Source: Gallionella sp.
Lineage (GTDB): Bacteria > Pseudomonadota > Gammaproteobacteria > Burkholderiales > Gallionellaceae
Assembly (NCBI GenBank): GCA_003153155.1
Contig: PLWV01000030.1
Coordinates: forward strand, 783 to 64,782
DNA: 64,000 nucleotides
Direction of reading: 5' to 3'
The notes beneath the pieces were generated by a model. The model was not told where the DNA came from and did no database searches. It was given only the letters and a program-made list of their open reading frames with translations. The first letter of the stretch is position 1. Each line of letters begins with the position of its first letter. The position numbers and the translations under genes are program-made. Of this stretch, positions 3,863-54,610 are shown in pieces.

Positions 3863-3912
3863 CATAACCAGCCATTTGGTTGTCGTTCTTTGACAACCTA
3901 GTGGAATGGCTA
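3863..3912 (-). repeat. variable-stem palindromic repeat, stem GTTGTC/GACAAC
   Basis: The plus strand reads ATAACCAGCCATTTG, then inner stem GTTGTC, loop GTTCTTT, stem GACAAC, then CTAGTGGAATGGCTA. Flanks match the other copies of this repeat in the window while the six-base stem differs and is still fully complementary. Confidence 0.8.
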
Positions 3913-3935
3913 GGAGTTTCATCAGTGGAATGGCT

Positions 3936-3986
3936 ATAACCAATGACTTGCCCAGCGTCTTTTGCTGGGTTAGTCAGATGGCTAGT
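3936..3986 (-). repeat. variable-stem palindromic repeat, stem CCCAGC/GCTGGG
   Basis: The plus strand reads ATAACCAATGACTTG, CCCAGC, loop GTCTTTT, GCTGGG, TTAGTCAGATGGCTA. The same stem recurs at 49082 and, in the other orientation, at 32512. Confidence 0.8.
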
Positions 3987-4041
3987 AGTCATATCAGTAG
4001 CTCCATCAGTTGGGATGAAATCTGGATTTTTAGAGGTGGAC

Positions 4042-4296
4042 ATGACCATTACTGACTGGATCGGCAGTACCGCTGCTACACTTACCACCACAGCCTTCAT
4101 CCCGCAGGCTTGGAAAGTATGGCGCACCAACCATACCGCTGACATCTCATTGGGTATGTATATCCTGTTCACGATCGGGGTCGCGCTGTGGCTGGCCTAC
4201 GGTATCCTGCTCGAATCATGGCCGATCATCATCGCCAACTCTGTCACGCTGTTATTGGCGGGGGCCGTGTTGGTAATGAAAATCAAATTCGGCTAA
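4042..4296 (+). CDS. SemiSWEET-type sugar transporter (PQ-loop protein)
   Basis: An 84-residue membrane protein with three hydrophobic helices and the family signatures TTTAFIPQAWKVWRT (PQ motif, about residues 14-28) and SLGMYILFTIGVALWLAYG. The length equals that of bacterial SemiSWEETs, which dimerise to move sugars across the inner membrane; the substrate here is unknown. The ORF track starts at 3943 inside the MITE, but residue 1 is better placed at the ATG at 4042, after AGAGGTGG, where family homology begins. The Shine-Dalgarno sequence therefore comes from the MITE end. A methyltransferase gene follows after 14 bp. Confidence 0.88.
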   Translation: MTITDWIGSTAATLTTTAFIPQAWKVWRTNHTADISLGMYILFTIGVALWLAYGILLESWPIIIANSVTLLLAGAVLVMKIKFG

Positions 4297-4310
4297 AGCA
4301 CAAACACATC

Positions 4311-5144
4311 ATGAACAAAATCCTCGAAATCAAACCCAATCAATCCGTCGAGTTGCTCAAAGAGTTGCATATCCTGACGCGTAACGGCAAGCTCAATCAG
4401 GACAGCCGGCGCAAATTGAAGCAGGTGTATCACTTGTTTCATTTCATCGAACCGTTGCTGGATGAAGTACTCGCCGCCAAGCAAAATCTGACGCTGGCGG
4501 ATCACGGCGCGGGCAAATCCTACCTGGGTTTCATCATCTACGATTTATTCCTGAAGGCACGCGAGACTGAACATATTTCTGGGCATATTTACGGCATCGA
4601 AACCCGCGAGGAATTGGTCAGCAAATCGCAAGGATTGGCGGCCAAGCTGGGCTTTGCGCGCATGTCGTTTCTGAATCTGTTGGTGGAAGAATCTATCCAC
4701 TCGCCGCAACTGCCCGAGCAAATTGATGTAGTCACCGCACTGCACGCCTGCGACACCGCCACCGACGATGCGATCAAATTCGCTCTACACAAACAGGCTA
4801 AATTCATTGTGCTGGTACCGTGCTGTCAGGCCGAAGTCGCGGCAGTGTTGAACAAAAATAAAAACCAGTCATTTGGCAAAACACCGCTCTCGGAAATCTG
4901 GCGGCATCCGATTCACACTCGCGAATTCGGCAGCCACCTCACCAACGTGCTGCGCTGTTTGCAACTGGAAGCGCATGGTTATCAGGTGACGGTGACAGAA
5001 TTGGTCGGCTGGGAACATTCGATGAAGAACGAGCTGATTATCGCCAGCCGCAAAGGCGCGGCGAGAAAAAATGCGCAGGAAAGACTTGAGCAGATTTTGC
5101 GCGAGTTGAATCTGGAAGAATTGCGCAATAGGTTCATCTATTAG
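4311..5144 (+). CDS. class I SAM-dependent methyltransferase (Methyltransf_32-like)
   Basis: 277 residues from the ATG at 4311; the longer track ORF from 4188 overlaps the preceding gene. A SAM-binding motif I is seen as LADHGAGKSYLGF (about residue 60), followed by HIYGIETREELV (acidic motif II), ALHACDTATDDAI and VPCCQAEVA, a pattern I recognise from the PF13679 methyltransferase family. The substrate is unknown; RNA or protein is possible. Its 3' end overlaps the 3' end of convergent queG by 11 bp, so the transcripts are antisense at their tails. Confidence 0.75.
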   Translation: MNKILEIKPNQSVELLKELHILTRNGKLNQDSRRKLKQVYHLFHFIEPLLDEVLAAKQNLTLADHGAGKSYLGFIIYDLFLKARETEHISGHIYGIETREELVSKSQGLAAKLGFARMSFLNLLVEESIHSPQLPEQIDVVTALHACDTATDDAIKFALHKQAKFIVLVPCCQAEVAAVLNKNKNQSFGKTPLSEIWRHPIHTREFGSHLTNVLRCLQLEAHGYQVTVTELVGWEHSMKNELIIASRKGAARKNAQERLEQILRELNLEELRNRFIY

Positions 5145-6231
5145 CGTGTTGCAACAGCGCCCACGCAACGTGTTCTCGCACTAACTCGGATGGATGTTCG
5201 GCGCGCGACTTCAATGCGGCTATCACTACGATACTCTTAGTCGCATTACCCAGTGCCACGGCAATATTGCGCAGCCATTGTTCGTGGCCAATGCGATAGA
5301 TGGCACTGCCCGAAAGCTTGGTTTTGAACTCAGCTTCATCCCACGCGAACAACTCCGCGAGCGACACATCATCCAGCCCGTGCCGCACTGCAAAATCCGG
5401 CTCGACTGTGGTTTGCGCAAAACCATTCCATGGGCACGCCAACTGGCAGTCGTCGCAACCGTAGATGCGATTGCCGATCAGCGGGCGCAACTCGACCGGA
5501 ATGCTGCTCTTGAGTTCGATAGTGAGATAGGAAATGCAGCGGCGCGCATCCAGCCGATACGGCGCGATGATCGCTTGGGTCGGACATATCTCGATGCAGC
5601 GTGTGCAACTGCCACAATGTTCTTCTTGCGGTATATCCACTGGCAGCGGCAGGTTCAGGTAAATTTCGCCGAGAAAAAACCACGAGCCGTGTTCGCGCGA
5701 TAGTAGCAAGGTGTGCTTGCCGCGCCAACCCAGGCCGGCTTTGCGCGCCAGTTCCACTTCCATCACCGGCGCGCTGTCGGTGAATACACGCCCGTCGAAG
5801 TCGGCGACTTCAGCACGAATTTTATCGGCCAGTTTCGCCAAGCGATTGCGCAGCACTTTGTGATAATCGCGCCCCAAGGCATAGCGCGAAATGAAGGCGC
5901 GCTCGCCCTCTGCCAACACTTGCCAACTGTCGCGTGCCTGGGGCGGTAAATAGTTCATGCGCAGCGAAATTACGCGCAAGGTGCCGGGCACTAACTCTGC
6001 CGGACGGCTGCGTTTGGTGCCGTGATTTGCCATATAATCCTGTTCGCCGTGCCAGCCGAGTGCGAGCCATTCCAACAGGCCGCTTTCCGCCGCAGAAAGA
6101 TCGGTGTCGCTGATGCCCACGGCCTGAAAGCCAAGCTCATGCGCCCACCCGCGTATCTGTGCTGCAAGCGCGGCGTAATTTACCTGCTGAGGATTTCCGT
6201 TTTGCCCCTGTTGAGGTTTTCTATTTTGCAT
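5134..6231 (-). CDS. queG: epoxyqueuosine reductase QueG
   Basis: This cobalamin-dependent iron-sulfur enzyme performs the last step of queuosine synthesis, reducing epoxyqueuosine to queuosine in tRNAs with GUN anticodons. Visible signatures are YALGRDYHK (about 118), the conserved FTDSAPVMEVELA with the catalytic Asp (about 150), CGSCTRCIEICPTQAI (first 4Fe-4S set, about 210) and CDDCQLACPWN (second set, about 260). About 365 residues is normal. The track start at 6237 is a GTG; the ATG two codons later (6231) is used here. It is divergent from tsaE, with a short intergenic gap. Confidence 0.95.
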   Translation of the reverse strand: MQNRKPQQGQNGNPQQVNYAALAAQIRGWAHELGFQAVGISDTDLSAAESGLLEWLALGWHGEQDYMANHGTKRSRPAELVPGTLRVISLRMNYLPPQARDSWQVLAEGERAFISRYALGRDYHKVLRNRLAKLADKIRAEVADFDGRVFTDSAPVMEVELARKAGLGWRGKHTLLLSREHGSWFFLGEIYLNLPLPVDIPQEEHCGSCTRCIEICPTQAIIAPYRLDARRCISYLTIELKSSIPVELRPLIGNRIYGCDDCQLACPWNGFAQTTVEPDFAVRHGLDDVSLAELFAWDEAEFKTKLSGSAIYRIGHEQWLRNIAVALGNATKSIVVIAALKSRAEHPSELVREHVAWALLQHANR

Positions 6232-6255
6232 AGTCACGATGATAGCCGAATCAGC

Positions 6256-6696
6256 ATGAATCTAGCCGATGAAAGCGCGACCGTCGCGCTGGCGCAACGC
6301 CTCGCGGCGCGCCTCAAACCCGGTATAGTGATTTATCTGCATGGTGATCTGGGGGCTGGCAAAACCACCTTGGTGCGTGCTGTGCTAAACGCGCTGGGTT
6401 ATTCCGGTCGCGTGAAGAGCCCCACCTATACACTAGTTGAGCCTTACAATGCCGCTGGGTTAGAATTTCGCCACTTCGATCTGTATCGTCTGCACGATGA
6501 GGAAGAATGGGAAGCAGCCGGGTTCCGCGATGAGTTTGACGGGCACAATATATTTTTCATCGAATGGCCGGAACACGCACAGGGATTGATTCCGCAAGCC
6601 GATGTGGAGATTATGTTTGAAATTTTGTCGCATGGGCGCAACGTCGAGATTAGGGGCAACACACCAACAGGACGAGAATGCTTAAAGCAGTTTTAA
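6256..6696 (+). CDS. tsaE: tRNA threonylcarbamoyladenosine biosynthesis ATPase TsaE
   Basis: 146 residues from the ATG at 6256, which aligns with the usual N-terminus; the track ORF reads in from 6022. A Walker A HGDLGAGKTTLVRA (about 30-43), SPTYTLVEPY and HFDLYRLHDEEEWEAAGF are typical. TsaE works with TsaB and TsaD to put t6A at position 37 of ANN-decoding tRNAs. The last 19 bp overlap the start of the amidase gene, a common tsaE-amiB/C arrangement that suggests coupled translation. Confidence 0.95.
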   Translation: MNLADESATVALAQRLAARLKPGIVIYLHGDLGAGKTTLVRAVLNALGYSGRVKSPTYTLVEPYNAAGLEFRHFDLYRLHDEEEWEAAGFRDEFDGHNIFFIEWPEHAQGLIPQADVEIMFEILSHGRNVEIRGNTPTGRECLKQF

Positions 6697-8096
6697 AACT
6701 CGTTACATTATCGTTTTTTCTCTGGCTGCCACAGGGGCACGCAGCCATCGCCATCAATTCGGCGCGTGTCTGGCCAGCGCAAGATTACACACGCCTGACG
6801 CTCGAATCCAAACAGGCCATCCGCCACAACATGTTCAATTTGAGCAATCCTGAACGCTTGGTAATTGACTTGGAGGAAGTTGAACTCGGCAACGCGCTTA
6901 ACGACCTGGCCAAGCTGATCGGCAACGACGATCCCTACATCAAGAGCGTACGCGTGGGGCGTTTCAAGCCCGGCGTGGTGCGCTTGGTGCTGGACTTGAA
7001 AAGCGAGGCCAAGCCCCAGCTATTTGTCCTTAAGCCGGTCGCTGAATACGGCTATCGCCTGGTGCTGGACGTGTATCCCGCCCGGCCGCCGCTTGACCCG
7101 CTGATGGCTTTGCTCGAGCAACCCAGAATCAGCATCCCCGAAACTGCGGGCACACCCACCACAACCAATCAGCCCGCAGAAAAAGCTCCTGCCGACGAAA
7201 AGCTTTTGATGGAACCACTAGCCATTCGACTAAGCGAGCAAACAACGCCCGCCAAGTCGCTGGTTATGTCCGGGCACCCGGAAGACAAACTGCAGATGGC
7301 CCAGAGCTTGAGTATCGACAACAACGATAAGCCGCCTCCCAGCGCAACCGCAACGCCCAGTCTGCCTGAAATGCGGGCACGCACCCTGATCATCGCGATC
7401 GATGCCGGACACGGTGGCGAAGACCCAGGTGCGCGGGGAAGATATGGCTCTCGCGAGAAGAATGTGACACTGGCGATTGCACGCAAGGTAAAAGCATTGG
7501 TCGATGATGTGCCAAATATGCGCGGCATACTGATTCGCGACGGAGATTACTTCATCCCGCTGATTGGGCGCGTCGCCAAAGCACGCAAAGTGAACGCAGA
7601 TTTGTTCATCTCCATCCATGCAGATGCCTTCATCAAAGCGAATGCGCGTGGTTCGTCGGTATTTGCCTTATCTGAACACGGTGCGACCAGCACCGCCGCA
7701 CGCTGGTTAGCAAAAAAGGAAAACGAAGCAGACTTGATCGGGGGCGTGAACATCGCGGTAAAAGACCCCTACCTTGCGCGCACCCTGCTCGACCTGTCAC
7801 AGACCGCCACCATCACCGACAGCATGAAGCTCGCCAAACATGTGCTGAACGAACTGGGCGGCATCAACGACCTGCATCGCGGACGGGTGGAACAGGCAGG
7901 ATTCGCCGTGCTGAAATCACCGGACATCCCGTCCATCCTGGTTGAAACTGCTTTCATCAGCAACCCCAGCGAAGAGCGTCGCTTGAATGACAAAAACTAT
8001 CAGATGAAACTTGCCAATGCGATTCTGGGTGGCATCAAACGCTATTTCGCACAGAATCCGGCATTATCCAAACCAAAAATCGCGCAGATCAACTAG
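6678..8096 (+). CDS. amiC: N-acetylmuramoyl-L-alanine amidase with AMIN domain
   Basis: A 472-residue periplasmic cell-wall hydrolase that cleaves the amide between muramic acid and the stem peptide during daughter-cell separation. It has a signal peptide (about 1-22, ending QGHA), an AMIN septal-targeting domain (about 25-130), a linker and a zinc Amidase_3 domain (about 235-455) with DAGHGGEDPGARG, SREKNVTLA, ISIHADAF and LVETAFISN carrying the expected His/Glu ligands. The linker (about residues 174-203) contains an in-frame repeat insertion (see 7199-7284). It overlaps tsaE by 19 bp. Its final 58 nt recur at 9293-9350. Confidence 0.93.
   Translation: MLKAVLKLVTLSFFLWLPQGHAAIAINSARVWPAQDYTRLTLESKQAIRHNMFNLSNPERLVIDLEEVELGNALNDLAKLIGNDDPYIKSVRVGRFKPGVVRLVLDLKSEAKPQLFVLKPVAEYGYRLVLDVYPARPPLDPLMALLEQPRISIPETAGTPTTTNQPAEKAPADEKLLMEPLAIRLSEQTTPAKSLVMSGHPEDKLQMAQSLSIDNNDKPPPSATATPSLPEMRARTLIIAIDAGHGGEDPGARGRYGSREKNVTLAIARKVKALVDDVPNMRGILIRDGDYFIPLIGRVAKARKVNADLFISIHADAFIKANARGSSVFALSEHGATSTAARWLAKKENEADLIGGVNIAVKDPYLARTLLDLSQTATITDSMKLAKHVLNELGGINDLHRGRVEQAGFAVLKSPDIPSILVETAFISNPSEERRLNDKNYQMKLANAILGGIKRYFAQNPALSKPKIAQIN
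7199..7284 (+). repeat. in-frame composite repeat inside amiC
   Basis: GAAAAGCTTTTG and TCCGGGCACCCG are the two halves of the GHPSEK-type repeat seen elsewhere. Between them sits a variable-stem palindrome: TAGCCATTCGACTAA, GCGAGC, AAACAAC, GCCCGC, CAAGTCGCTGGTTAT (one stem mismatch). The insertion keeps the amiC frame and falls in the linker between AMIN and catalytic domains. Confidence 0.8.
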
Positions 8097-8119
8097 AAAT
8101 AAATTATGGGGAAGAACCG

Positions 8120-9076
8120 ATGGATCAGAGACTACTCAGAATATTAGGTGGGGAAACGAAGTTCTATCCATACTTGCTGGAAAGTAAATATCCACGAATT
8201 CTTGCGCAGATCATGTTGCTCTGGGATGAGCCCGGAATGAGTAATTATTTTATGGAATTGATGGTGAGTGACCGCGAGGACCGTTCCGGTTTTCCTCCCG
8301 ATGTTGCGGCTGAAATTATCCGCTTGAGCCTGATGCATGCCAGCTCGCACAAACCTCACAAGAAGCCTGATATTTGGGAGGTATCTGCAAATAAATTTTC
8401 CGACTTCAGGCCCCCAGTCTCTATCGCAATGAGCAATGTATGGAAACCGCTTTCAGATACAACAACAAAGGCATTAAAAAGATTTGGCATTCCCGGCTCG
8501 GCCCGGGGTTTTCATAGCGCGGCAGAAACAGGCAATCGCCCAGCAGTCGCGTTATTTCTTGAAGCTCGTGTCAACACCGAAATTCATAATGAACGTGGCT
8601 GGACTCCCCTGATGCTGGCCGCTTTCAATGGGCACAATGAAGTTATCAGAACTCTGATTAAACATAACGCGAACGTACACGCCAGCGACTTACTCGGCAA
8701 CACCGCCTTGCATTGGGCTGTGGGTGCAGGACAAACATCTAGTGCAAAATTACTTATCGAAAATCGCGCGGGGGTTGACGCATGCAACCATTCTGGCATG
8801 ACACCTTTATTTCAGGCAACAATACACCGTCGCTTGGGAGATGTGCTGCTGTTAATTGACAGTGGTGCCAACCTGAATTTGGCAACACGCGACGGTTCGA
8901 CTGCTTTGCACAAAGCTGCCGCAGAAGGTTACACCGAAATCGTCAGAACACTATTGCACCACGGTGCCGATACGAGCATCAAAAATCTCGACGGGAATCT
9001 GCCACTCGCGTTAGCCGCAAAAAACGACCGGAAGGCTGTTATAAAGATACTTATGTCCAACTCCAAGGCTGGGTAA
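8120..9076 (+). CDS. ankyrin-repeat protein
   Basis: 318 residues. From about residue 130 to the end there are five or six ankyrin repeats, with cores such as GWTPLMLAAFNGHNEVIRTL, GNTALHWAVGAG and GSTALHKAAAEGYTEIVRTL. The N-terminal 130 residues match nothing I recognise and show no signal peptide, so a cytoplasmic protein-binding role is likely but the partner is unknown. A GAAGAACC stretch precedes the ATG. It is flanked by two copies of the amiC 3' end, and its AT-richer composition differs from the neighbours, suggesting insertion. Confidence 0.85.
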   Translation: MDQRLLRILGGETKFYPYLLESKYPRILAQIMLLWDEPGMSNYFMELMVSDREDRSGFPPDVAAEIIRLSLMHASSHKPHKKPDIWEVSANKFSDFRPPVSIAMSNVWKPLSDTTTKALKRFGIPGSARGFHSAAETGNRPAVALFLEARVNTEIHNERGWTPLMLAAFNGHNEVIRTLIKHNANVHASDLLGNTALHWAVGAGQTSSAKLLIENRAGVDACNHSGMTPLFQATIHRRLGDVLLLIDSGANLNLATRDGSTALHKAAAEGYTEIVRTLLHHGADTSIKNLDGNLPLALAAKNDRKAVIKILMSNSKAG

Positions 9077-9129
9077 TATGGTCTTAGGCATAACTTAATT
9101 AGCGCGCTTGTTTCCCCAGGAAAAAACCG

Positions 9130-9285
9130 TCAAGCAGGAAACACACTAGTCGATAGATAACGATCGCAGCGATCACACACGATAAAGGCAATCACCTCAT
9201 TCTCAACTTGTTGCGAGATGCGCAGTGCTAAACTCAATGCGCCACCGGTGGAAGCGCCGCCGAAGATACCTTCTTCGTGCACCAT
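9130..9285 (-). pseudogene. C-terminal fragment of a cysteine synthase B-like gene
   Basis: The minus strand encodes EEGIFGGASTGGALSLALRI and then SQQVENEVIAFIVCDRCDRYLS, clearly homologous to the C-terminus of the intact CysM at 10750-11637 but diverged (roughly 80% at DNA level by eye). Only the last 50 or so codons exist and there is no start or catalytic domain, so it is a remnant. It lies between the ankyrin gene and a copy of the amiC tail. Confidence 0.8.
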
Positions 9286-9292
9286 GCAACAG

Positions 9293-9350
9293 ACGCTATT
9301 TCGCACAGAATCCGGCATTATCCAAACCAAAAATTGTGCAGTTCAATTAG
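9293..9350 (+). pseudogene. duplicated 3' end of amiC
   Basis: ACGCTATTTCGCACAGAATC and the following bases repeat amiC 8039-8096 including its stop region, identical for about 40 nt and then with a few changes. The copy overlaps the stop codon of the convergent FimV-like gene, so amiC and fimV-like may once have been direct convergent neighbours. Confidence 0.8.
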
Positions 9351-10684
9351 CTATAAAGGGCATTATTCGGATCCAGATTGCGTCCCATCTCCGTTGCCTT
9401 TGCCCAAGCCATTCCATCCCCCAACAACTTCAGATGCTGCGCCACCGCAAGGAAGGCGATGCTATCCTCTCGCGCAAAATAAATACGCAACAACCTCAGG
9501 TAAGCGTGCGGATTTTTCGGATTGATCTTAATGGCTTCCCTCAATACCTCCTCGGCAAGTTTGTCGTGTCCAAATCGCAGATAAATGTCCGCTTCTTCCA
9601 ACATCTCATATTCGGGCGGCAGAATGGACTGGGATTTCTCTTCGTTATAAGCGGGAGTTTTAATTGTTTGCTCATCCACTGGCAAAACCGTTTGAACAAT
9701 GACAGGCGGCTCTACCAATTCAGGGTCGTGCACATCACTTAAATCATGGAAAGAGCCGCGCTTCCATTGCTGCTTAGTCTTATATCTGCGATACCAGACG
9801 AAACCCGGCACGGCAAGCAACACCAAGCCTAGCCCTATTGCCGGTTTTATCCAACTCATCTTAAGCAACTCGACCCGACTATTCTCTTCCTTGCTTGTTT
9901 GCCGAAGAACTGGCGCAACAATTTTCGGCTTGGGCTGCTCATTGCCAACCCCAAGCACGCTGCTAACCCCGGACAAACCACCAACCGCTGAACTCTGTGC
10001 AAGCACCCCGGAAGGGGCAACACGCGAATAGGACGGGTTCGTCGAAATATCCAACTGACTTTGCTGCGCCTTGATCATCTGTTCCATTTCGGTGATCTGA
10101 GTGTTCAACACACTGAGCGTTTTTTCTTTCGCGATCGAATCCGGCTGCAGTGCCTCGCCAATTTTTGTCGAGTTGTCTGGCCGAACTGGCTCGTTTCCGG
10201 GAAGGGATAACTTCATTGAAAGCAACAACGGAAACTTGCCAAACGGCATGGTGTTTTGCTCGCTGCCAACATCGCCGGATGTCTTGCCAGCCGCACGCGA
10301 TGCTGAACCGGATAAAACCTGTCCTGAGTGTAGTCGAAGGGATGGTGATGCTACGCCTGACATCTGTTTGCTGTGTTTTATACTATGCACACCCGGCTTT
10401 TTGATTACGGCGGGCTTCGTCTCTCCATGCTGGGGCGCGGCCACGCTCCCAGAATTTGGCTGCTTAGGCTTTGTCCCTTCAGGGCGCTGTGAATTTTCCG
10501 CTTGCTCGGTAGATACAGACGGGATCAGCGCAATCTGCGCCTTGTCCATCTCGCCCGGATTGCTGTTCGCTTGAATCTCGCCCAGCCCTAAAGCGTTTGC
10601 ATTGGCCACAAACAAAACAGCCACGGATAACATCCATATCCGCGCTGCATTCCCCGCATGGCGAATTGCCTCTACTCTCATCAA
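9347..10684 (-). CDS. FimV-like membrane protein with C-terminal TPR-type region
   Basis: 445 residues. The N-terminus has a hydrophobic signal ending in NANALGLGEIQ, which resembles the mature start of FimV-type proteins. A long Ser/Pro/Gln-rich stretch, a coiled-coil-like segment (ITEMEQMIKAQQSQLDI, about 205), one membrane helix (PAIGLGLVLLAVPGFVWY, about 283-300) and a C-terminal helical repeat domain follow (about 360-440). FimV proteins organise polar and cell-wall-linked functions. Around residues 115-120 SLRLHSGQVLSG is encoded by a dispersed TTCGACTACACTCAGGACAG repeat, another in-frame insertion. The gene is shorter than classical FimV and lacks a visible LysM domain, so the name is tentative. 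Confidence 0.6.
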   Translation of the reverse strand: MMRVEAIRHAGNAARIWMLSVAVLFVANANALGLGEIQANSNPGEMDKAQIALIPSVSTEQAENSQRPEGTKPKQPNSGSVAAPQHGETKPAVIKKPGVHSIKHSKQMSGVASPSLRLHSGQVLSGSASRAAGKTSGDVGSEQNTMPFGKFPLLLSMKLSLPGNEPVRPDNSTKIGEALQPDSIAKEKTLSVLNTQITEMEQMIKAQQSQLDISTNPSYSRVAPSGVLAQSSAVGGLSGVSSVLGVGNEQPKPKIVAPVLRQTSKEENSRVELLKMSWIKPAIGLGLVLLAVPGFVWYRRYKTKQQWKRGSFHDLSDVHDPELVEPPVIVQTVLPVDEQTIKTPAYNEEKSQSILPPEYEMLEEADIYLRFGHDKLAEEVLREAIKINPKNPHAYLRLLRIYFAREDSIAFLAVAQHLKLLGDGMAWAKATEMGRNLDPNNALYS

Positions 10685-10749
10685 CGACAGTCATCTTTCT
10701 GTTTAAGTTAGACGTGACTATTCTAGCCGCATTTGCTGCGCTGAGCCTA

Positions 10750-11637: not shown

Positions 11638-11668
11638 GTATACTCTGTAATTAATCAAGCAACCGTAT

Positions 11669-12667: not shown

Positions 12668-12758
12668 AGCTATTCCTCTCTAAAATCTGACATGGCGGGT
12701 AACGATAAGGGATAAGAGTGAAGGGGTAATGGTAAAACCATAAGCCCCGCGCCACCCT

Positions 12759-13706: not shown

Positions 13707-13722
13707 CCTGCGCTTTTCTGAT

Positions 13723-15617: not shown

Positions 15618-15641
15618 AACTAAAAGTGTTTATCTAGGCGT

Positions 15642-15929: not shown

Positions 15930-15963
15930 GGCACACCCCGATAAAATCATTGCAACGATAGCA

Positions 15964-16379: not shown

Positions 16380-18104
<1,725 letters not shown>

Positions 18105-25706: not shown

Positions 25707-25710
<4 letters not shown>
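25522..25710 (+). CDS. Trm112/YcaR-family small protein
   Basis: 62 residues: [20 protein letters not shown] opens the protein with a CPLC pair, and [12 protein letters not shown] is the conserved tail. The second Cys pair of some relatives is reduced to one Cys (ELIC). Homologues sit between lpxK and kdsB in many proteobacteria; function is not established. It overlaps both neighbours (20 and 4 bp). Confidence 0.9.
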
Positions 25711-27283
<1,573 letters not shown>

Positions 27284-32417: not shown

Positions 32418-32504
32418 AAAAGCTGGGCTGGCTCGATCTACCCCCTGCTCTTCTCACGATCAGTCAGCGAACCCTCCGAAAAACTTATGATAGAACCTCT
32501 GATA

Positions 32505-32655
32505 GGACTACTAGCCATCTGACTAACCCAGCAAAGGACGCTGGGCAAGTCATTGGTTATAGCCATTCCACTAGGCTATCAGCCGAAGAGCTTTTGGCCG
32601 GGCACCCGAAAGACGATAGCCAAGTGGCTGGTTATGGCCGGGCACCCGCGAGACG
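32505..32655 (+). repeat. cluster of two variable-stem palindromes and GHPSEK-type repeats
   Basis: 32512-32560: TAGCCATCTGACTAA, CCCAGC, AAAGGAC, GCTGGG, CAAGTCATTGGTTAT. Directly after, 32561-32635: TAGCCATTCCACTAG, stem GCTATC, a loop enlarged by GAAGAGCTTTTGGCCGGGCA and CCCG, stem GATAGC, CAAGTGGCTGGTTAT. A further GGCCGGGCACCCG unit overlaps the 3' end of the methyltransferase gene and supplies its stop region. Confidence 0.8.
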
Positions 32656-35869: not shown

Positions 35870-36730
35870 ATGACTGCACAAATCATAGACGGCAAGACCA
35901 TCGCCCAGCAGGTGCGCGCCGAGTGGAAGGTGCGCGCCGATGCGCTGAAGGCGCGCGGTGTAACACCGGGCTTGGCGGCAGTCATCGTGGGCAACGACCC
36001 CGCCTCCAAGGTGTATGTCGCGAATAAAGTCAAAGCCTGCGCGGAACTGGGGCTGTATTCAAAACACATCGAGTTGGGCAGCGACATTTCCGAGGCCGCA
36101 CTGCTGGCCGAAATCGCTGCGTTGAATAGCGATCCCAAGATACACGGCATCCTCGTGCAACTGCCGCTGCCCAAGCATCTGGACGCGCACAAAGTCATCG
36201 AGGCGATCAACCCGGATAAAGACGTGGACGGCTTCCACGAAAAAAATGTCGGCGCGCTGGTGACCGGCGAAACACCCTTCCCCTCCTGCACACCATTTGG
36301 CGTGATGGTGCTGCTGGAAAAAACCGGCATCGCGATCGAGGGCAAACACGCCGTGATCGTGGGTCGCAGCAACATCGTCGGCAAACCGATGGCACTGCTG
36401 CTGCTGCACAAGAATGCCACCGTGACGATTTGCACTTCCAAGACCGTAGATTTAGCCAAGCACACCCGCGATGCGGACATACTGGTCGCGGCGGTGGGCA
36501 AGCCCAACTTCATCACCGGCGACATGGTCAAACCCGGTGCGGTCGTGATTGATGTCGGCATCAATCGCAACGCGGAAGGCAAGCTGGTCGGCGATGTGGA
36601 CTTCGCCAGCGTGAAGGAAGTGGCGGGCTACATCACTCCGGTGCCCGGCGGCGTTGGGCCGATGACCATCACCATGCTGGTGGCGAATACCGTGCGCGCG
36701 GCGGAGCGGTTATCCGGTTTCAGCAAGTAA
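35870..36730 (+). CDS. folD: methylenetetrahydrofolate dehydrogenase/cyclohydrolase
   Basis: A 286-residue bifunctional folate one-carbon enzyme. The catalytic Lys is in [14 protein letters not shown] (about 56), with [20 protein letters not shown], the NADP loop [16 protein letters not shown] (about 165) and the final [19 protein letters not shown]. The last about 119 nt plus stop and 11 bp beyond are duplicated at 37974-38104. Confidence 0.97.
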
Positions 36731-36878
36731 CGGGTATCAGAATTTCCAGCTCGCGCTCGCGCACAGCTTGTTCGGCGATGAAGATGGGGCATTGGTGATG
36801 CCAAGGCCACTAATCGCCGCGGCCTTGACTTGGCCGGGCATGGCGGTGTAAAAAAACTATCGATTGGAGCCCTTCATT

Positions 36879-37976
36879 GTGAGCAAACTGTTTTCCCCGA
36901 TCACCCTTGGCAGCCTGGTTTTGAGCAACCGAATCGCCATCGCGCCCATGTGCCAGTACTCCGCCGAGCATGGCCAGGCAAGCGACTGGCATCTGATTCA
37001 CCTTGGCCACTTGGCTTTGTCTGGCGCCGGCCTGCTGTTCACCGAGGCAACGGCGGTAGCGCCGGAAGGCCGCATCTCTCCGCGCGACCTTGGGCTGTGG
37101 TCCGACCAGACGGAGGCGGCGCTTGCTCGTGTCCTCAAGTCGATTCGGCAGTACTCGGCTATGCCCATCGCCATCCAGTTGGCACACGCCGGGCGCAAGG
37201 CATCCACCCTGGTGCCGTGGGAGGGTGGTCAATCAATCGCGCCGGAGAACGGTGGCTGGCAAACCGCCGCCCCATCCGCCTTGCCCTATGATGCGGACAG
37301 TGGTCAGCCCCTCGCGTTGGATGGCGCTGGATTGCAGCGAATCCGGAACGACTTCGTGTCCGCGGCGCAACGTGCGCTTCGGCTGGGCGTGGACGTTATC
37401 GAACTGCACGCGGCGCATGGCTATCTGTTGCATCAATTCCTGTCGCCCTTGTCGAATACCCGCGATGACCAGTATGGCGGCATGCTGGAGAACCGGATGC
37501 GCTTCCCGCTTGAAGTGTTCGAGGCCATACGCAGTGCTGTGCCGGACGACAAGCCGGTTGGCATCCGGATTTCCGCAACAGACTGGGTGGCCGGCGGATG
37601 GGACATCGAGCAGAGCGTCGTTTTCGCAAAGGAACTGCAGCGTCGGGGGTGCGCATTCATCGATGTTTCGAGCGGCGGGCTGTCTCCTTTGCAACAGATT
37701 CCGGCTGAGCCGGGCTATCAGGTTCCTTTCGCCGAAAGAATCCGGCGCGAAACCGGTTTGACCACGATCGCCGTGGGCCTGATCACCGAGCCGGAACAGG
37801 CTGAAACGATTGTCTCCTCCGGACAGGCAGACATGGTGGCGCTGGCCCGGGGCATGCTGTATGACCCGCGCTGGCCATGGCACGCAGCAGCAAAGCTGGG
37901 CGCCCAAGTCGACGCGCCGAGACAATATTGGCGCTCGCAGCCGCGAGGGTTCAAAACTTTGTTCAAACCAGGATGA
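36879..37976 (+). CDS. Old Yellow Enzyme family NADH:flavin oxidoreductase (YqjM/NamA class)
   Basis: 365 residues from the GTG at 36879, nine bases after GGAG; the track start at 36864 is a TTG. An FMN TIM barrel with [20 protein letters not shown] (the Cys marks the YqjM class), [30 protein letters not shown], the catalytic [19 protein letters not shown] and [20 protein letters not shown]. Such enzymes reduce activated C=C bonds with NAD(P)H; the physiological substrate is unknown. It lies between two copies of the folD 3' end; its TGA stop is inside the second copy, suggesting insertion. Confidence 0.93.
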
Positions 37977-38104
37977 AGGAAGTGGCGGGCTACATCACTC
38001 CGGTGCCCGGCGGCGTTGGGCCGATGACCATCACCATGCTGGTGGCGAATACTGTGCGCGCGGTGGAGCGGTTATCCGGTTTCAGCAAGTAACGTGTATC
38101 AGAT
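37974..38104 (+). pseudogene. duplicated 3' end of folD
   Basis: TGAAGGAAGTGGCGGGCTAC and the following 110 nt repeat folD 36612-36741 with about three differences, through the folD stop and 11 bp beyond. It encodes only [19 protein letters not shown] plus a few residues; no promoter or full domain. Confidence 0.95.
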
Positions 38105-38587
38105 TTCGGTGATGGTTTAAGGTCAAAATGTTCTGTGTTCAAGAACAAGGTCGGTGTTGATGCAGTCGGTTCACATAAACGCAATAACCGCTTTGTGCCA
38201 AAACAGGACGGTCGAGTATTTCCTCCATAGCAGACGCTCGATAACATTATTGGTCAGCTGAGAGCATCAATTAATATTTCCTGGCGGTTATGAACTTAAC
38301 CCAGAATTATCCAGGTCGTTTTGCATATTCTTTGCGATTGCCACAAAAGGTCGGTTAAGGTTCAAAAAATTGGCCAGATTGCGTCCCTTGGCTCAAGTTG
38401 CATGCGCTGGCCAACAACTGCCCGGCAGACTTGGGCGAGTTGCATCTCACCGCACGCAACAAGCTCAAGAGTGACCAAACACGCTCCTCGATCATCGCTG
38501 CTTGTTGGATGTAGACCACCCTTTTTGGTAGTATCATGATCCGTTGAAACATCAATAATGAAGCTGTGTCCATAATAGAAAATCTGC
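38105..38587. other. intergenic region without a clear gene
   Basis: No ORF with recognisable content. TGTGCCAAAACAGGACGG...TAGCAGACGCTCGATAAC near 38200 resembles a segment at 42247-42298 (GTGCCAAAAGGAGACAGACG...TAGCAGACATTCCATGAT), a diverged repeat. A 72-codon minus-strand ORF (38355-38573) shows nothing convincing. Confidence 0.5.
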
Positions 38588-44319: not shown

Positions 44320-44660
44320 TTATTTGGGAGCACCGGAAACAGCAGAAGCAGGCAGTGACATCGCCTGCTTCTCTGTTATCTGAGCAGATGGATCTTCCAG
44401 AATCTGGTAGAACACTTCGTCGCGTTTGATCATGCCCAACTCGCTGCGTGCACGTTCTTCGATAGCCGCCGTCCCTTGCTTGAGATCGCGCACTTCAGCA
44501 TCCAGCACTGCATTGCGCGTTTGAGTCTGCTGATTGACTTGCTGTTGTGCTTCAACTTGGCGATGCAAGTCCCAAACTTTCAACCAGCTGCCTTTGCCCA
44601 GCCACAGCGGGTACTGCAACAGCAGCAGCAGAACGACCAGTATCAGTGTGACTGCACGCA

Positions 44661-44661
<1 letters not shown>
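44320..44661 (-). CDS. ftsB: cell division protein FtsB
   Basis: 113 residues: one N-terminal membrane helix ([20 protein letters not shown]) and a periplasmic coiled coil ([40 protein letters not shown]) ending in [13 protein letters not shown], the FtsB hallmark. It joins FtsL and FtsQ in the divisome. Its ATG overlaps the eno stop by one base, the usual eno-ftsB pair. The C-terminal 25 residues are variable. Confidence 0.93.
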
Positions 44662-48727
<4,066 letters not shown>

Positions 48728-48731
48728 TCAG

Positions 48732-48808
48732 TAGGGGCACGGCGGTGTCAATTCCACATCCAGCTTGCTGGATAGTGGATTGCCTGACTTTGTTGCGCCG
48801 TGCCCCTA
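48732..48808. repeat. TKSGNPL...ELT repeat, copy 3, complete with 13-bp terminal inverted repeats
   Basis: TAGGGGCACGGCG and CGCCGTGCCCCTA are perfect inverted ends around GTGTCAATTCC, hairpin ATCCAGC/GCTGGAT and GGATTGCCTGACTTTGTT. This intergenic copy shows the unit as a 77-bp nested palindrome. Confidence 0.85.
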
Positions 48809-48871
48809 TGGAGACCCAATCACGGCTTGCGAAAAATTGCCGAATCCAAACCCGGACATCGAATATCTAAT

Positions 48872-49187
48872 GGGAGCCTCTAAAAATTCAGAGTTCGCCC
48901 AAATGCAAGGCGCGTAAAAAATTTCGCAGCGCCGCATATGGGTTATATGCAAGCAAGAAATTTTTTACGCAACGCAGCATAACCAGCCACTTGGTTGCCG
49001 TTAACCAATGACTTAGTTGGCGTAGTTTGCCAACTTAGTCAGATGGCTATGCAAAGCTTTTTGGCGACTTAGTGCAATGGCTATAACCAATGACTTGCCC
49101 AGCGTCTTTTGCTGGGTTAGTCAGATGGCTAGTAGTCATATCAGTTGTTTCATCAGTTGGGATGAAATCTGGATTTTTAGAGGTTCC
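48872..49187. mobile_element. MITE-like element, copy 3
   Basis: Ends GGGAGCCTCTAAAAATTCAG and CTGGATTTTTAGAGGTTCCC; TAAT flanks both sides (possible 4-bp target duplication). Inside are a perfect 14-bp inverted repeat (GCGTAAAAAATTTC at 48912, GAAATTTTTTACGC at 48957) and three variable-stem palindromes, one nested in the loop of another. It lies between pyrG and nuoN; the nuoN stop codon uses the base at the element edge. No transposase. Confidence 0.85.
48983..49132 (-). repeat. three variable-stem palindromes, one nested
   Basis: An outer copy (ATAACCAGCCACTTG, GTTGCC ... GGCGAC, TTAGTGCAATGGCTA) is split in its loop by a complete second copy (AACCAATGACTTA, GTTGGC, GTAGTTT, GCCAAC, TTAGTCAGATGGCTA; 49002-49049). 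The third copy (49082-49132) has stem CCCAGC/GCTGGG, identical to 3936-3986. Confidence 0.8.
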
Positions 49188-50645
49188 CTAATGCAGCAAC
49201 AAGGATTGTTGGACTGACACGGCGCAAACCGACATCAGAGTGCCGGGCAGCAAACCAAGCAACAACACGCCCAAGCCGTTCACGCTGATCAGCAGCGTGG
49301 TATCTTGTCCGAAGATAATCGGCTCGTGACTTTCCGGCGCGTCGAAATACATTAACTTGACGATGCGCAGGTAGTAGAACGCGCCGATCAGCGAAAACAG
49401 TACCGCCACGACAGCCAGCCAGATGTACCCCGCTTGCACGACGGCATTCAGCACCGAAAATTTTGCGTAAAAACCCACGGTGGGAGGCACCCCGGCCAAG
49501 GAGAACATCAGTATCAACATCAGGAAGGCGAGCCATGGACTGCGCTGGTTGAGGCCTTTGAAGTCGTTGAGGGTATCAGCCTCGAAGCCTACCCTTGACA
49601 GCAACATGATCATACCGAACGCACCCAGCGACATCAGCACATAAATCACGGCGTAGAACATTGATGAACCATAGCCTTCTATGTCACCGCTGATAAAACC
49701 CAGCAGCAGGAAGCCCATGTGCGCGATGGTTGAGTAGGCGAACATACGTTTGAGGTTGGTTTGCGCAATCGCGGTGATGTTACCGAGCGCCATTGAGGCA
49801 ATCGCTAGAATGATCAACATGCCCGACCAGTGTTGCACCAGCGGTTGCAGCCCTTCGACCAAGATGCGCGAAACAAAAGCAAAGGCGGCGAGTTTGGGTG
49901 CCGATCCGATCAGCATGGTCATCGCTGTCGGTGCGCCGTGATACACGTCCGGCAACCACATATGGAATGGCACCACGCCAAGTTTGAAGGCCAGACCGGA
50001 AACCACGAACACCAGCCCGAACACCAGCAAAGTTTTATTCGCATCACCGGATTGAATCGCGTTTGATACCTCCCCCAGCTCCAGCGAGCCGGTCGCCCCA
50101 TACAGCATGGACATGCCATACAACAGCAAGCCGGAAGCCAGCGCTCCAAGGATGAAGTATTTCATCGCAGCTTCGGTGGCGATGGCTGAATCGCGTTGCA
50201 ATGCGACCATTGCATACAGACTCAGGGAAAGCAACTCCAAGCCGAGATACAGCGCCAGGAAGTGGTTGGCGGAAATCATCACCATCATGCCGAGCGTGGC
50301 AAACAGGGTCAGCACCATGAATTCACCGCTGAACAGACCGCGCACGGTGAGATATAGCCTTGAATATATCAGCATCATGGAAACTGCCAGATAGGTCAGC
50401 AGCTTCAACACATCGGACATCAGATCGTCCACGAACATGTTGTGGAAGAGGTACGCCACACCGTTTTCATGCGTGCCCACGGTGATCAGCGCACAACCCA
50501 TCAAGGTGAGTTGCACCAGCATGTAAGTGGCCAGCCTGCCGCTTTGCTTGATCAGCGAATCCGCAATCAGAATCACACACGTCATGATCAGCAGGAATAT
50601 CTCCGCGCTGGCTGGCATCAAATTAGTCATCAAATCCATATTCAT
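49188..50645 (-). CDS. nuoN: NADH-quinone oxidoreductase subunit N
   Basis: A 485-residue, about 14-helix antiporter-like subunit of the complex I membrane arm. [20 protein letters not shown], the [19 protein letters not shown] loop with the key Lys, and [17 protein letters not shown] are conserved. It is the last gene of the nuo operon. The second Met (two codons in) is an equally good start. The C-terminus ends at a MITE, so the final residues may have been altered. Confidence 0.96.
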
Positions 50646-50676
50646 CTCAAAATCAGTCGTTAGTTATTAGCTGGTG

Positions 50677-50713
50677 GCTAGTAGCTTGTAGCTGGTAGCT
50701 ACAAGCTACTAGC
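50677..50713. repeat. 17-bp perfect hairpin between nuoM and nuoN
   Basis: GCTAGTAGCTTGTAGCT, loop GGT, AGCTACAAGCTACTAGC: a perfect 17-bp stem with a 3-nt loop in the 85-bp nuoM-nuoN gap. No T tract follows, so it looks like an mRNA processing or stability hairpin or a dispersed palindrome rather than a terminator. Confidence 0.85.
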
Positions 50714-50730
50714 TGTCCTCTGTCCTCTGA

Positions 50731-52218
50731 TCACGGCAGTTTGGAACGAGCTGCGTGTACTAGTAAATCATTCACTGACACATGCATGATTTCGCTGAAC
50801 GGTAGCGGGTACAACCCCATGCCCAGCACGGTAAGCGCCAGGATCGCGAAAATCACTTTGTCGCGCAGGGTGATGTCGGTCAGTTTGGCAACATGCGAGT
50901 TGGCAACTGCGCCGAAGATCACGCGCTTGTACATCCACAGCGTGTAGGCCGCGCCGAAGATCAGCGTGGATGCCGCGGCAAAAGCGTACCAGAAATTCGC
51001 TTTCACCGCGCCGAGAATCACCATGAATTCACCGACGAAGCCGCTGGTGCCCGGCAGGCCGACATTGGCCATGGCGAACAGCATAAAAAATGCGGCGAAC
51101 ACCGGCATGGTGTTGGCCACACCGCCGTAATTGGCAATGTTGCGTGAGTGCATCCGGTCATATAGCACGCCGATACAAAGGAACAATGCACCGGACACAA
51201 AGCCGTGTGAAATCATTTGCAGCAGCGCGCCTTCCATACCGTAATCGTTAAAGATGAACAAGCCCAGCGTGACGAAGCCCATGTGAGAAATCGATGAGTA
51301 CGCCACCAGTTTTTTCATGTCGGTCTGGGTTAATGCCACCAGACCGATGTACACCACCGCAATCAGCGACAAAGCGATCATCACTCCGGCCAAATGATGG
51401 CTGGCATCCGGCACGATAGGTATGGAGAAACGCAGAAAACCATAAGCGCCCACCTTCAGCATGATCGCCGCCAGAATCACCGAACCGCCGGTAGGCGCTT
51501 CGACGTGGGCATCCGGCAACCAGGTATGCACCGGGAACATCGGCACTTTCACCGCGAAGGCGAAGAAAAAAGCGATGAAGATCAGAATTTGCGCAGTCAT
51601 CGGGATCGCGACCTGATGGAAGTCAAGTATCTCGAAGCTGCCGCCGGATTGGTTATAAAGATAGATCAACGCCACCAGCATCAGCAGCGAACCGAGCAAG
51701 GTGTAGAGGAAGAACTTGACTGCCGCATACACACGATTCGCACCGCCCCACACGCCGATGATGAGAAACATCGGGATCAGCATGGCTTCCCAGAGCACAT
51801 AGAACAGTATGGCATCCAGCGCGGCGAACACGCCGATCATGATGCCGGACATGATCAGGAAGGATGCCATGTATTGCGCAACGCGCTTCTCGATCACCTG
51901 CCATCCGGCCAGCACCACGATGGGGGTGAAGAAAGAAGTGAGCAGAATGAACAGCACCGAGATGCCATCCACGCCGAGGTGATAGTGAATGTTGAAGCGT
52001 GCGATCCAGTTGTGCATCTCGACGAACTGCATCTCCGAGGTATCGCGCACAAAACTGGTATATAGAGGAATCGTCACCAGAAAGCCGAGCACCGAGCCGA
52101 CCATGGCCAGGATGCGCGCCAGCGGCGCATTCTTGTCGTCGCCGGTGGCCAACACCAGAATGCCGAAGATGATCGGCAACCAGATCGCAACGCTAATTAT
52201 GGGTAATCCAAAAAACAT
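50731..52218 (-). CDS. nuoM: NADH-quinone oxidoreductase subunit M
   Basis: A 495-residue antiporter-like proton-channel subunit. LWEAMLIPMFLIIGVWGG with the conserved Glu, FAVKVPMFPVHTWLPDAHVE with the conserved Lys, and KKLVAYSSISHMGFVTLGLF are seen; about 14 helices. It is preceded by nuoL after 50 bp. Confidence 0.97.
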   Translation of the reverse strand: MFFGLPIISVAIWLPIIFGILVLATGDDKNAPLARILAMVGSVLGFLVTIPLYTSFVRDTSEMQFVEMHNWIARFNIHYHLGVDGISVLFILLTSFFTPIVVLAGWQVIEKRVAQYMASFLIMSGIMIGVFAALDAILFYVLWEAMLIPMFLIIGVWGGANRVYAAVKFFLYTLLGSLLMLVALIYLYNQSGGSFEILDFHQVAIPMTAQILIFIAFFFAFAVKVPMFPVHTWLPDAHVEAPTGGSVILAAIMLKVGAYGFLRFSIPIVPDASHHLAGVMIALSLIAVVYIGLVALTQTDMKKLVAYSSISHMGFVTLGLFIFNDYGMEGALLQMISHGFVSGALFLCIGVLYDRMHSRNIANYGGVANTMPVFAAFFMLFAMANVGLPGTSGFVGEFMVILGAVKANFWYAFAAASTLIFGAAYTLWMYKRVIFGAVANSHVAKLTDITLRDKVIFAILALTVLGMGLYPLPFSEIMHVSVNDLLVHAARSKLP

Positions 52219-52268
52219 GCTGTTGTTCCTTCACTTTCTCGCTGCTATCACGCTGTTCAAACCACACA

Positions 52269-54407
52269 TCACTCAAACCAGTTCCGCACCGTCAGCAGCA
52301 CGAACACGCCGATGATCATGGAAAACGCATAGTGATAGATATAGCCGGACTGGAGATGCCGGAGCACTCCGGAAAACATGCCTACCAGCTTCGCCGAACC
52401 ATTCACTATCATTCCGTCGATCAGCTTCACATCGCCGAATTTCCACAGCAAGCGACTCGTACCGCGCGCCCCGCCGGCAAAGAACCAGTCGTTAAAGCGG
52501 TCGAAGTAATATTTGTTGTCCAGCAGGGTGTAGATGGAATGAAAACGCTTTTGAATCGCAGCAGGAATATCCGGGCGCTTCATATAGAAGAACCATGCGG
52601 TCACGACACCCGACAAAGCGAGCCAAAACGGGAGTTCACCCACTGCATGCAAGACCTTTGCCACCGGGTCGAAATGCTCGATGGCCAGCACCGTCATGCC
52701 AGCATGATCAAGCGAAATGTAGATGGCATCTTTAAAAAAGTTGCCAAACAGTAAAGGCTCCATGGTGAAATAACCGATGAAAACTGATGGGATCGCCAGC
52801 ATGATGAGCGGGAATGTCACCACCCATGGCGATTCGTGCGGCTTCTGTCCTGGTGCGAGACCGTGGTGAGGGTCGTCGCCCGATGCTTTCTCCTCGTCAT
52901 GGTCGCCATGCGCATGAGCATCCGTCTGTCCTGAGCCTCCTGAGGTATCGAAGCCTGTCCTAAGCCTTGTCGAAGGGGGCGAAGGATGCACTTGTGTCAA
53001 TTCCGCATTCGCTTCAGCGGATAGCGGATTGCCTGACTTTGTTATGCCAAAACGCTCCTCGCCATGAAACACCAGGAAGTACATACGGAACGAATAAAAT
53101 GCGGTGACGAACACCCCTGCCACCACAGCGAAATAGGCAAACTCGGCACCCGGCAAGGTCGATAGCTCAACTACCTCAATGATGCTGTCCTTGGAATAGA
53201 AACCGGAGAAGAACGGTGTGCCAATCAGCGCCAATGAACCGATCAGAAAGGTCCAATGGGTAATCTTCATGTACTTGCGCAGGCCGCCCATGTTGCGGAT
53301 GTCCTGATCGTGGTGCATGGCGATGATCACGCTACCGGCGGCAAGGAACAGCAGCGCCTTGAAGAAGGCGTGGGTCATCAGGTGGAAGATCGCCACCGAG
53401 TAAGCGGAAGCGCCCAGTGCCACGGTCATATAGCCCAGTTGCGACAACGTGGAATATGCGATCACGCGCTTGATATCGTTCTGGATAATGCCGAGAAAAC
53501 CCATGAACAGCGCGGTGATCGCACCGATGATCATCACGAACGACAGCGCGGTATCGGACAACTCGAACATTGGCGACATGCGCGCCACCATGAAGATACC
53601 GGCGGTCACCATGGTCGCAGCGTGAATCAGTGCGGAGATCGGGGTCGGGCCTTCCATCGAATCGGGCAGCCAGACATGCAACGGAAACTGTGCCGATTTA
53701 CCCATCGCACCCATGAACAGCAATATGCATATCGCAGTAAGCAAATTCACCGACATGCCGGGGATTGGTGCCATATCGGCAGCGTGACTGGCCGCATTGG
53801 CGAACACAGCGGCATAGTCCAGCGTACCGAACACCATCAACACCAAAGCGATGCCCAGCAGGAAGCCGAAGTCGCCGACGCGATTCACCAGAAAGGCTTT
53901 TAGATTGGCGTAAATCGCGGTTTCCTTGTTGTACCAGAAACCGATCAGCAGGTAGGAAACCAGGCCCACCGCTTCCCATCCGAAGAACAGTTGCATGAAA
54001 TTGTTGGCCATCACCAGCATCAGCATGGAGAAGGTAAACAGCGAAATGTAACTGAAGAAACGCTGGTAGCCGGGATCTTCTTCCATATAGCCGATGGTGT
54101 AGATGTGCACCATCAGCGACACAAAGGTGACCACCAGCATCATGGTGACGGTCAGACTATCGATCAGGAAACCAACCTGAAACCTGGCATCACCCGAGGT
54201 CAGCCAGGTATAGACCGGGCCGTTGAACCTATGGCCTGCCTGCACATCGTCGAAAATCACCACAGAGGCAAAGAAGGAAACAGCTACCAGCGCGATAGTG
54301 ATGCGATGCGACCAAGCGCGACCAAGCCACTTTCCGAATAAACCGGCGGCAATCGCCCCGACCAGCGGAGCCAGCGGAACCAGCAGATAAAGGCTTTGCA
54401 TATTCAT
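52269..54407 (-). CDS. nuoL: NADH-quinone oxidoreductase subunit L, with in-frame repeat insertions
   Basis: 712 residues from the ATG at 54407; the track ORF begins inside the MITE upstream. It is the distal antiporter-like subunit with the lateral helix. Conserved are FFGWEAVGLVSYLLIGFWYN, KSAQFPLHVWLPDSMEGPTP and RVIAYSTLSQLGYMTVALG. It is longer than E. coli NuoL (613). After FHGEERF a stretch of about 50-70 residues (GITKSGNPLSAEANAELTQV, HPSPPSTRLRTGFDTSGG) comes from two dispersed repeats, then a His/Asp-rich loop. The AAAGG Shine-Dalgarno sequence is in the MITE end. Confidence 0.95.
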   Translation of the reverse strand: MNMQSLYLLVPLAPLVGAIAAGLFGKWLGRAWSHRITIALVAVSFFASVVIFDDVQAGHRFNGPVYTWLTSGDARFQVGFLIDSLTVTMMLVVTFVSLMVHIYTIGYMEEDPGYQRFFSYISLFTFSMLMLVMANNFMQLFFGWEAVGLVSYLLIGFWYNKETAIYANLKAFLVNRVGDFGFLLGIALVLMVFGTLDYAAVFANAASHAADMAPIPGMSVNLLTAICILLFMGAMGKSAQFPLHVWLPDSMEGPTPISALIHAATMVTAGIFMVARMSPMFELSDTALSFVMIIGAITALFMGFLGIIQNDIKRVIAYSTLSQLGYMTVALGASAYSVAIFHLMTHAFFKALLFLAAGSVIIAMHHDQDIRNMGGLRKYMKITHWTFLIGSLALIGTPFFSGFYSKDSIIEVVELSTLPGAEFAYFAVVAGVFVTAFYSFRMYFLVFHGEERFGITKSGNPLSAEANAELTQVHPSPPSTRLRTGFDTSGGSGQTDAHAHGDHDEEKASGDDPHHGLAPGQKPHESPWVVTFPLIMLAIPSVFIGYFTMEPLLFGNFFKDAIYISLDHAGMTVLAIEHFDPVAKVLHAVGELPFWLALSGVVTAWFFYMKRPDIPAAIQKRFHSIYTLLDNKYYFDRFNDWFFAGGARGTSRLLWKFGDVKLIDGMIVNGSAKLVGMFSGVLRHLQSGYIYHYAFSMIIGVFVLLTVRNWFE
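52926..53043 (-). repeat. two dispersed repeats in frame inside nuoL
   Basis: 52926-52977 is a CTGTCCTGAGCCTCCTGAGG...CCTGTCCTAAGCCTTGTCGA palindromic repeat of a type common in many genomes (one half also in the FimV-like gene). 52994-53043 is GTGTCAATTCC, hairpin CCGC/GCGG, GGATTGCCTGACTTTGTT, the same unit as at 46863 and 48745 and read in the same frame as the ORF at 46815. Confidence 0.8.
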
Positions 54408-54610
54408 AATGAAACCTTTAAAAATCGTAGCGAGCGGTTCGAGAGCAAGGCGCACGGCGCGTTGCATGGCCATTCGACTAAGCTGGCAAAAGAACGCCAG
54501 CCAAGTCGCTGGTCAGCGCAGCGAACGAGACATACCAAATGGGTAGGCGAAGAGCGAGCACCGCGTAACGCCGCTATCGAATCGCGCAGTAGATTTTTAG
54601 AGGTTTCCAT
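54408..54610. mobile_element. MITE-like element, copy 4
   Basis: Ends GAAACCTTTAAAAATCGTAG (left) and GATTTTTAGAGGTTTCC (right) form the same inverted repeat as the other copies, though diverged. The interior differs but contains a variable-stem palindrome (54466-54515: GCCATTCGACTAA, GCTGGC, AAAAGAAC, GCCAGC, CAAGTCGCTGGTCA). It fills the nuoK-nuoL gap, an otherwise tight operon. Confidence 0.7.

Follow-up and report, generated by a model that had tools for sequence, protein, structure and literature searches.

The palindromes dispersed through Gallionellaceae genomes constitute a new, family-wide group of REP/RPE-like mobile palindromes, combining a defined unit and target with insertion into one another, in-frame insertion into genes and a stem drift that conserves the fold. 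They were analysed here in a 64,000-nt stretch of Gallionella DNA (the window; hosts of this type are iron oxidisers), in the genome to which it belongs and in relatives. The host was placed through its KdsB protein, for which the best named relatives come from Gallionella MAGs, with an identity of about 80%. We favour the reading that they are a very small, non-autonomous mobile DNA element of this family, which probably moves as folded single-stranded DNA through an enzyme acting in trans. Movement itself is deduced from sequence comparison, namely from empty sites in relatives.

The palindrome (TAGCCAT..TGGTTA) is 48 nt long, and ten cores lie within the window. A covariance model (R1; 48 positions, 17 pairs) was made from 11 copies. 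It recovered the window copies with E-values from 3.6e-16 to about 1e-9 and gave 196 matches across 1.6 Mb of the window's genome; a separate whole-genome search, in which 150 first-look candidates were scored, placed at least 171 copies in the 2.75 Mb of the same genome. Matches were present in 131 of 150 Gallionellaceae genomes and in 14 of 15 genera, with copy numbers among relatives ranging from 0 to over 170 and at most one copy in 4 of 36 genomes of the same genus, while none occurred in 24 genomes that represent 24 further families of the order. This search of genome and relatives had been proposed in an earlier note on the window, which had also listed the local copies; all of them are there, within about 3 bases of the positions it gave, and their inner stems and outer-arm variants are as it described. 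Rfam models matched only rRNA and tRNA in the window, leaving the palindrome without a match, and no paper in the literature searched described these repeats for Gallionella.

The unit that moves is longer than the palindrome. Its main form, H1, is exactly 60 nt long and consists of a constant 12-nt head, TGATGRAACNAC, joined to the 48-nt core (in summary form, TGATGAAACTAC plus core), and a second form, H2, carries the head GCTTTGCA on a core (8+48/49 nt). H1 is inserted at C^T (or T^T): across 58 unique flanks the position before the element was C in 77% and T in 20%, and the position after it was T in 93%. A precise gain of 60 nt is seen at kdsB (ORF 25707-26627), where the empty site of a relative (L038) reads TTTTCATCCTC|GCCCGAAGG and the window is 60 nt longer, with an in-frame H1 on the + strand at 26228-26287 (core 26240-26287). 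In kdsB of other Gallionella/Ferrigenium (L111, L042, L047) the element is reversed and occupies a different point, at which L063 is empty; L069 kdsB has a 54-nt version. At ribE, L240 is without insert (..NQVSGSEFSVNL..), L238, a sister of the window's genome, has a 27-nt unit, B (GCCGAAGAACTTTTGGCCGGGCACCCG), alone, and in the window's genome this earlier insertion B itself contains an H1. The comparison of insertion sites between strains that the earlier note had advised thus yielded empty sites at both genes. Neither of these sites has a target duplication, and the element, which ends TGATG../..GGTTA, has no terminal inverted repeats; the two features that define classical bacterial MITEs were therefore not found. 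The mobile palindrome envisaged in the earlier note holds as regards mobility and kept pairing; it has to be extended to a 60-nt element that has a C^T target, nests in itself and lies in frame within genes.

Nesting is seen in several arrangements. Thirty of 109 H1 matches lie in three recognisable repeat targets, 28 of them with a length of exactly 60 nt: 11 interrupt another core's arm (GAC^TA), 9 are placed where the head and core of another H1 meet (CTAC^TAGCC), which gives rise to head-to-tail arrays, and 10 are within B. About 19 copies of H2 occupy another core's loop. B is a separate 27-nt mobile in-frame unit with 50 sites in 1.6 Mb, 10 of them intragenic and none containing a stop. 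In many Gallionella (L038-L081), KdsB also contains one or more copies of another GC-rich repeat in frame (SSPEGRDDCPSSLRGEVRRG), and this repeat was the target of the 60-nt element.

Within the window, an H1 at 3937-3996 (- strand; head 3985-3996, core 3937-3984) has the inner stem CCCAGC/GCTGGG, and a copy with an identical stem occupies 49084-49143 (- strand; head 49132-49143, core 49084-49131). The feature at 3865-3936 (- strand) is an H1 (core 3865-3912, head 3913-3924; stem GTTGTC/GACAAC) after the half arm TAGCCATTCCAC of another core (3925-3936). An intergenic H1 at 32500-32559 (+ strand; core 32512-32559), again with the stem CCCAGC/GCTGGG, directly adjoins a 75-nt core at 32560-32634 (+ strand; stem GCTATC/GATAGC) whose loop holds a 27-nt B. 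The core TAGCCATTGCACTAAGTCGCCAAAA..ACGGCAACCAAGTGGCTGGTTA at 48984-49083 (- strand) is split into two parts (48984-49001 and 49058-49083) by an H2 in its loop at 49002-49057 (- strand; head at 49050-49057, core 49002-49049); what had been noted earlier as one copy at 48983/49002 is present, and it is in fact two things, the split core and the complete element in its loop. In amiC (ORF 6678-8096), an in-frame H1 at 7207-7266 (+ strand; core 7219-7266) lies in the AMIN/Amidase_3 linker and interrupts a B, the left part of which runs to 7206 while TGTCCGGGCACCCG follows at 7267-7280. A core of the TGGCC..GGTCA subfamily, with an GCGTTGCA (H2-type) head and a foot pair changed from A-U to G-C, is found at 54467-54515 (+ strand). 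This subfamily sits within a longer dispersed repeat (AGCAAGGCGCACGGAGCTTTGCA.. to ..GCGCAGCGAACGAGACATACC), present in L001, L003 and L004 and at 54455-54600 of the window. Three tandem 27-nt B elements at 54957-55044 (- strand) supply the C-terminal (SEKLLAGHP)x3 of NuoJ (ORF 54945-55625). Two further observations concern the window: NuoL (nuoL, 52269-54473) extends about 100 residues beyond the length of its family model, and its HPSPPSTRLRTGFDTSGGSG stretch may be a further insert; a 139-nt direct repeat with 96% identity lies at 36606-36744 and 37968-38106.

Copies within genes were assessed with a codon score applied after removal of the element, which asks whether the coding frame continues and is blind to coding by the element itself. 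Most copies are intergenic, and 13 of 81 singletons are intragenic, 2 of the 13 being antisense and 5 lying in a B context. All 13 are 60 nt long with a stop-free frame, three of the six frames being stop-free; because five of them share the B context, their frames are not independent, and the number of independent cases is closer to eight, with kdsB in addition. The interrupted genes include amiC, pdxA, ribE, birA, coaBC, mutS, rlmM and comEC, as well as genes for an RNB exoribonuclease, a PP2C phosphatase, a GAF-HD protein and an AMP-forming ligase. In the predicted structure of RibE the fold is retained (pTM 0.74) and the insert forms a disordered loop between two strands (pLDDT about 45-52). 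Since only copies with a stop-free frame occur in genes, they would most simply be translated through as a 20-residue insert rather than spliced or bypassed. A further apparent intragenic match, a 91-nt composite at L161:9186-9276, failed the element-removed test and was discarded as a chance pattern match.

The stem changes its letters and keeps its pairing. When 11 copies were aligned with MAFFT, 97.9% of cells were paired and 22 had changed on both sides, none on one side alone; a shift of the 3′ partner by 1-3 columns lowered pairing to 40% or less. Across 150 copies, in an alignment fitted to the structure, 96.8% of cells were paired and two-sided changes numbered 285 versus 9 one-sided (shuffled mean of two-sided changes, 87.8). 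In 20 copies from other genomes, outside the training set of R1 and likewise fitted to the structure, 96.7% were paired and 36 two-sided changes compared with a shuffled mean of 8.2; because copies share descent, the cells and counts in these comparisons are not independent events. The claim of the earlier note that complementarity persists while sequence changes is thus borne out at n=150 and recurs in the 20 foreign copies. Its description of the stem as deliberately variable fared less well. The 147 copies of 48 or 75 nt have 70 different inner stems between them, 18 of these being perfect, and this fits stepwise compensatory change without a dedicated diversifier. Single-pair steps connect stems (GCTGGC, GCTGTC, GCTATC; GCTGGC, GTTGGC, GTTGTC), intermediates such as GCTGGC/GCCAAC exist, and one mismatched stem, GTCGCC/GGCAAC with a C.A mismatch, is shared by five copies. 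These results support a model in which pairing is maintained during sequence change and the single-stranded hairpin is the thing that is selected or copied.

Residual mismatches suggest which strand folds. Counted once per distinct stem on the top strand, as first read in the earlier note, A-C mismatches outnumber G-T by 36 to 8 (two-sided binomial p about 3e-5), and by 21 to 7 without the loop-closing pair, which stands in an ACG context (p=0.013). Top-strand A-C mismatches are G-T wobbles on the complementary strand. Columns 15/36 of the top strand have A.C in 50 cases and G.T in 1, and close to the foot a T.C/C.T mismatch covaries, which corresponds to G.A/A.G on the other strand. As ssDNA the complementary strand is the more stable one in 102 of 110 distinct cores, or in 95 of 110 with the loop neutralised. 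Contrary to this preference, the top strand has a fixed G.T at foot pair 3/48, and part of the A-C excess, reflecting an ACG to ACA step beside the loop, could be mutational in origin. Wobble patterns and folding energies together indicate that the complementary strand is likely to be the folded substrate. Selection on a top-strand RNA was rejected in its favour, top-strand G-U intermediates being rarer than A-C, and ssDNA is favoured over mRNA because intragenic copies lie in both orientations.

Several other explanations of these hairpins were weighed. A role in the cell, as in mRNA stabilisation, termination or binding of a nucleoid protein, would suit the intergenic position of most copies, and such hairpins can stabilise mRNA; we nevertheless regard it as very improbable, given the range of copy number among relatives, its fall to one or none within the genus, and the insertions within coding loops and within one another. 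Less probable still is removal of intragenic copies from the mRNA or their skipping by ribosomes, as in introns or mitochondrial byps, with the hairpin acting as RNA. The insertions are precise and in conserved genes, the RNA hairpin is stable, and palindromes that interrupt Magnusiomyces mitochondrial genes are bypassed in translation according to the account cited in PMC6649704; however, all 13 copies are stop-free and multiples of three, which removal or bypass would not demand, and with both orientations present there is no RNA hairpin common to all copies. A bypass element or intron tolerating any frame was likewise rejected, as 0 of 13 copies have a closed frame. Template switching during replication, whereby one arm is copied onto the other (quasipalindrome correction), deserves more weight, although we consider it unlikely. 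It would generate covariation without an enzyme that recognises hairpins, it accords with the large excess of two-sided over one-sided changes, it is known from other inverted repeats, and it has been proposed for the palindromes of hairworm mitochondria (PMC6649704). It leaves unexplained the strand bias of lasting mismatches (36 versus 8), the conserved mismatches and the spread of copies with an identical C.A mismatch.

The earlier note had pointed to a RAYT (TnpA-REP) gene, and mobilisation of REP elements by the genome's own RAYT was examined by searches with NF047646 and PF01797 in the window's genome, the genus, the family and closed genomes. The window's genome does encode two true RAYTs (NF047646, 203 and 195 bits) and one more distant Y1 protein, RAYTs are found in most palindrome-rich genomes of the genus, and insertion at CT agrees with the dinucleotide at which TnpA-REP cuts (PMC8266576). 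Yet no palindrome lies within about 1.5 kb of any of this genome's three Y1-type loci, and only 4 of 28 RAYT/Y1 loci have a copy at that distance. The RAYT loci of the genus adjoin GTAG-type palindromes of their own with a different sequence (GTAGGGCGCAATAAC.., CGTAGCCCGGATGAAG..; L305 2006-2083, L309 1395-1479 and 2266-2352), whereas our hairpin has no conserved GTAG/CGTC tag 5′ of its foot: the tetranucleotide is CTAC, CAAC, CCAC or CGAC, the third head position from the end being T in 53%, A in 27% and C in 13%. Presence of Y1 transposases is neither needed nor sufficient for that of the palindrome, because the closed genome G133 (11 copies) and G022 (83% complete, 108 copies) have no NF047646 or PF01797 matches, and the closed G134 and G141, from one genus of the family, have 12 and 11 RAYT matches and no copies; the mover of G133 may now be extinct. 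With no copies alongside the Y1-type loci of the window's genome and a copy number that does not go with RAYT presence, RAYT/Y1 was rejected as the likely mover, and we hold this explanation to be improbable. RAYTs, for which the earlier note had advised looking, do exist in the genome, but they neither lie beside the palindrome nor track its copy number. Among 30 Y1/IS200 loci (the Y1_Tnp genes of the genus), none contained an R1 match, so no autonomous parent is present there, and no element boundary resembled a known IS end; an IS200/IS605 parent may lie elsewhere. The searches with these two models revealed no mobilising enzyme in any of the four sets.

Taken together, these results are consistent with movement of the 60-nt unit as folded single-stranded DNA. 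The unit is inserted between C (or T) and T in intergenic DNA, other repeats, itself or genes, and in genes it would be a tolerated parasite. An enzyme acting in trans would recognise the fold of the complementary strand (TAACCAG..TGGCTAGTAG..), with its fixed A.C mismatch, G.A/A.G mismatch and T-rich loop, rather than the letters of the stem, and would join the folded strand at a CT-like dinucleotide. We propose that the stem drifts by compensatory, wobble-mediated steps because the enzyme reads the fold. Operation as a single-strand element is suggested by the CT preference and the lack of duplication, which resemble TnpA-REP/IS200 chemistry (PMC8266576). More tentatively, the 60-, 57- and 27-nt units, which enter each other and genes with the frame kept, might represent an undescribed class of single-strand element in Gallionellaceae, whose trans-acting enzyme would belong neither to the RAYTs nor to the IS200/IS605 transposases and would read nothing but the fold of one strand, leaving the stems free to drift.

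In-frame palindromic insertions have so far been chiefly a puzzle of Rickettsia and Wolbachia. The same phenomenon is now found in free-living bacteria. Many of their relatives have been sequenced, the empty sites are exact, the insertions are layered and the target rule is sharp, so a comparison of genomes that carry the element with those that lack it offers a way to seek the mover. The insertions also show a route by which short peptides enter housekeeping enzymes, riboflavin synthase and MutS among them. Several known systems share part of this behaviour. Cyanobacterial small dispersed repeats are very small hairpins that insert precisely into other repeats, as here, but the Gallionellaceae element also enters coding sequence and has a defined unit of 60 nt. 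Integron attC sites are recognised by the fold of one strand and have a variable stem; inspection found no RYYYAAC/GTTRRRY boxes here, and there is no cassette, the copies being dispersed singly. The byps of Magnusiomyces mitochondria are likewise short hairpins that interrupt genes, and as cited in PMC6649704 they are bypassed by ribosomes, whereas the Gallionellaceae copies are confined to open frames. GTAG/CGTC REPs with their RAYTs (REPtrons) are short, high-copy hairpins with conserved irregularities, a CT-type target and some insertions in ORFs (PMC3733652, PMC8266576); our element shares the insertion at CT, as judged from the sequence of the 58 flanks, and differs in its 60-nt unit and variable stem, without the 5′ tag or a flanking cognate RAYT. 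Similar in behaviour are the Rickettsia RPE and Wolbachia palindromic elements, RPE being mobile palindromes of 105-146 nt found between genes and in frame within conserved protein genes (PMC2229807). The Gallionellaceae element shares both locations (13 of 81 singletons being intragenic) and is set apart by description: a shorter unit of 60 nt, a C^T target, self-nesting and empty sites, in an unrelated host lineage.
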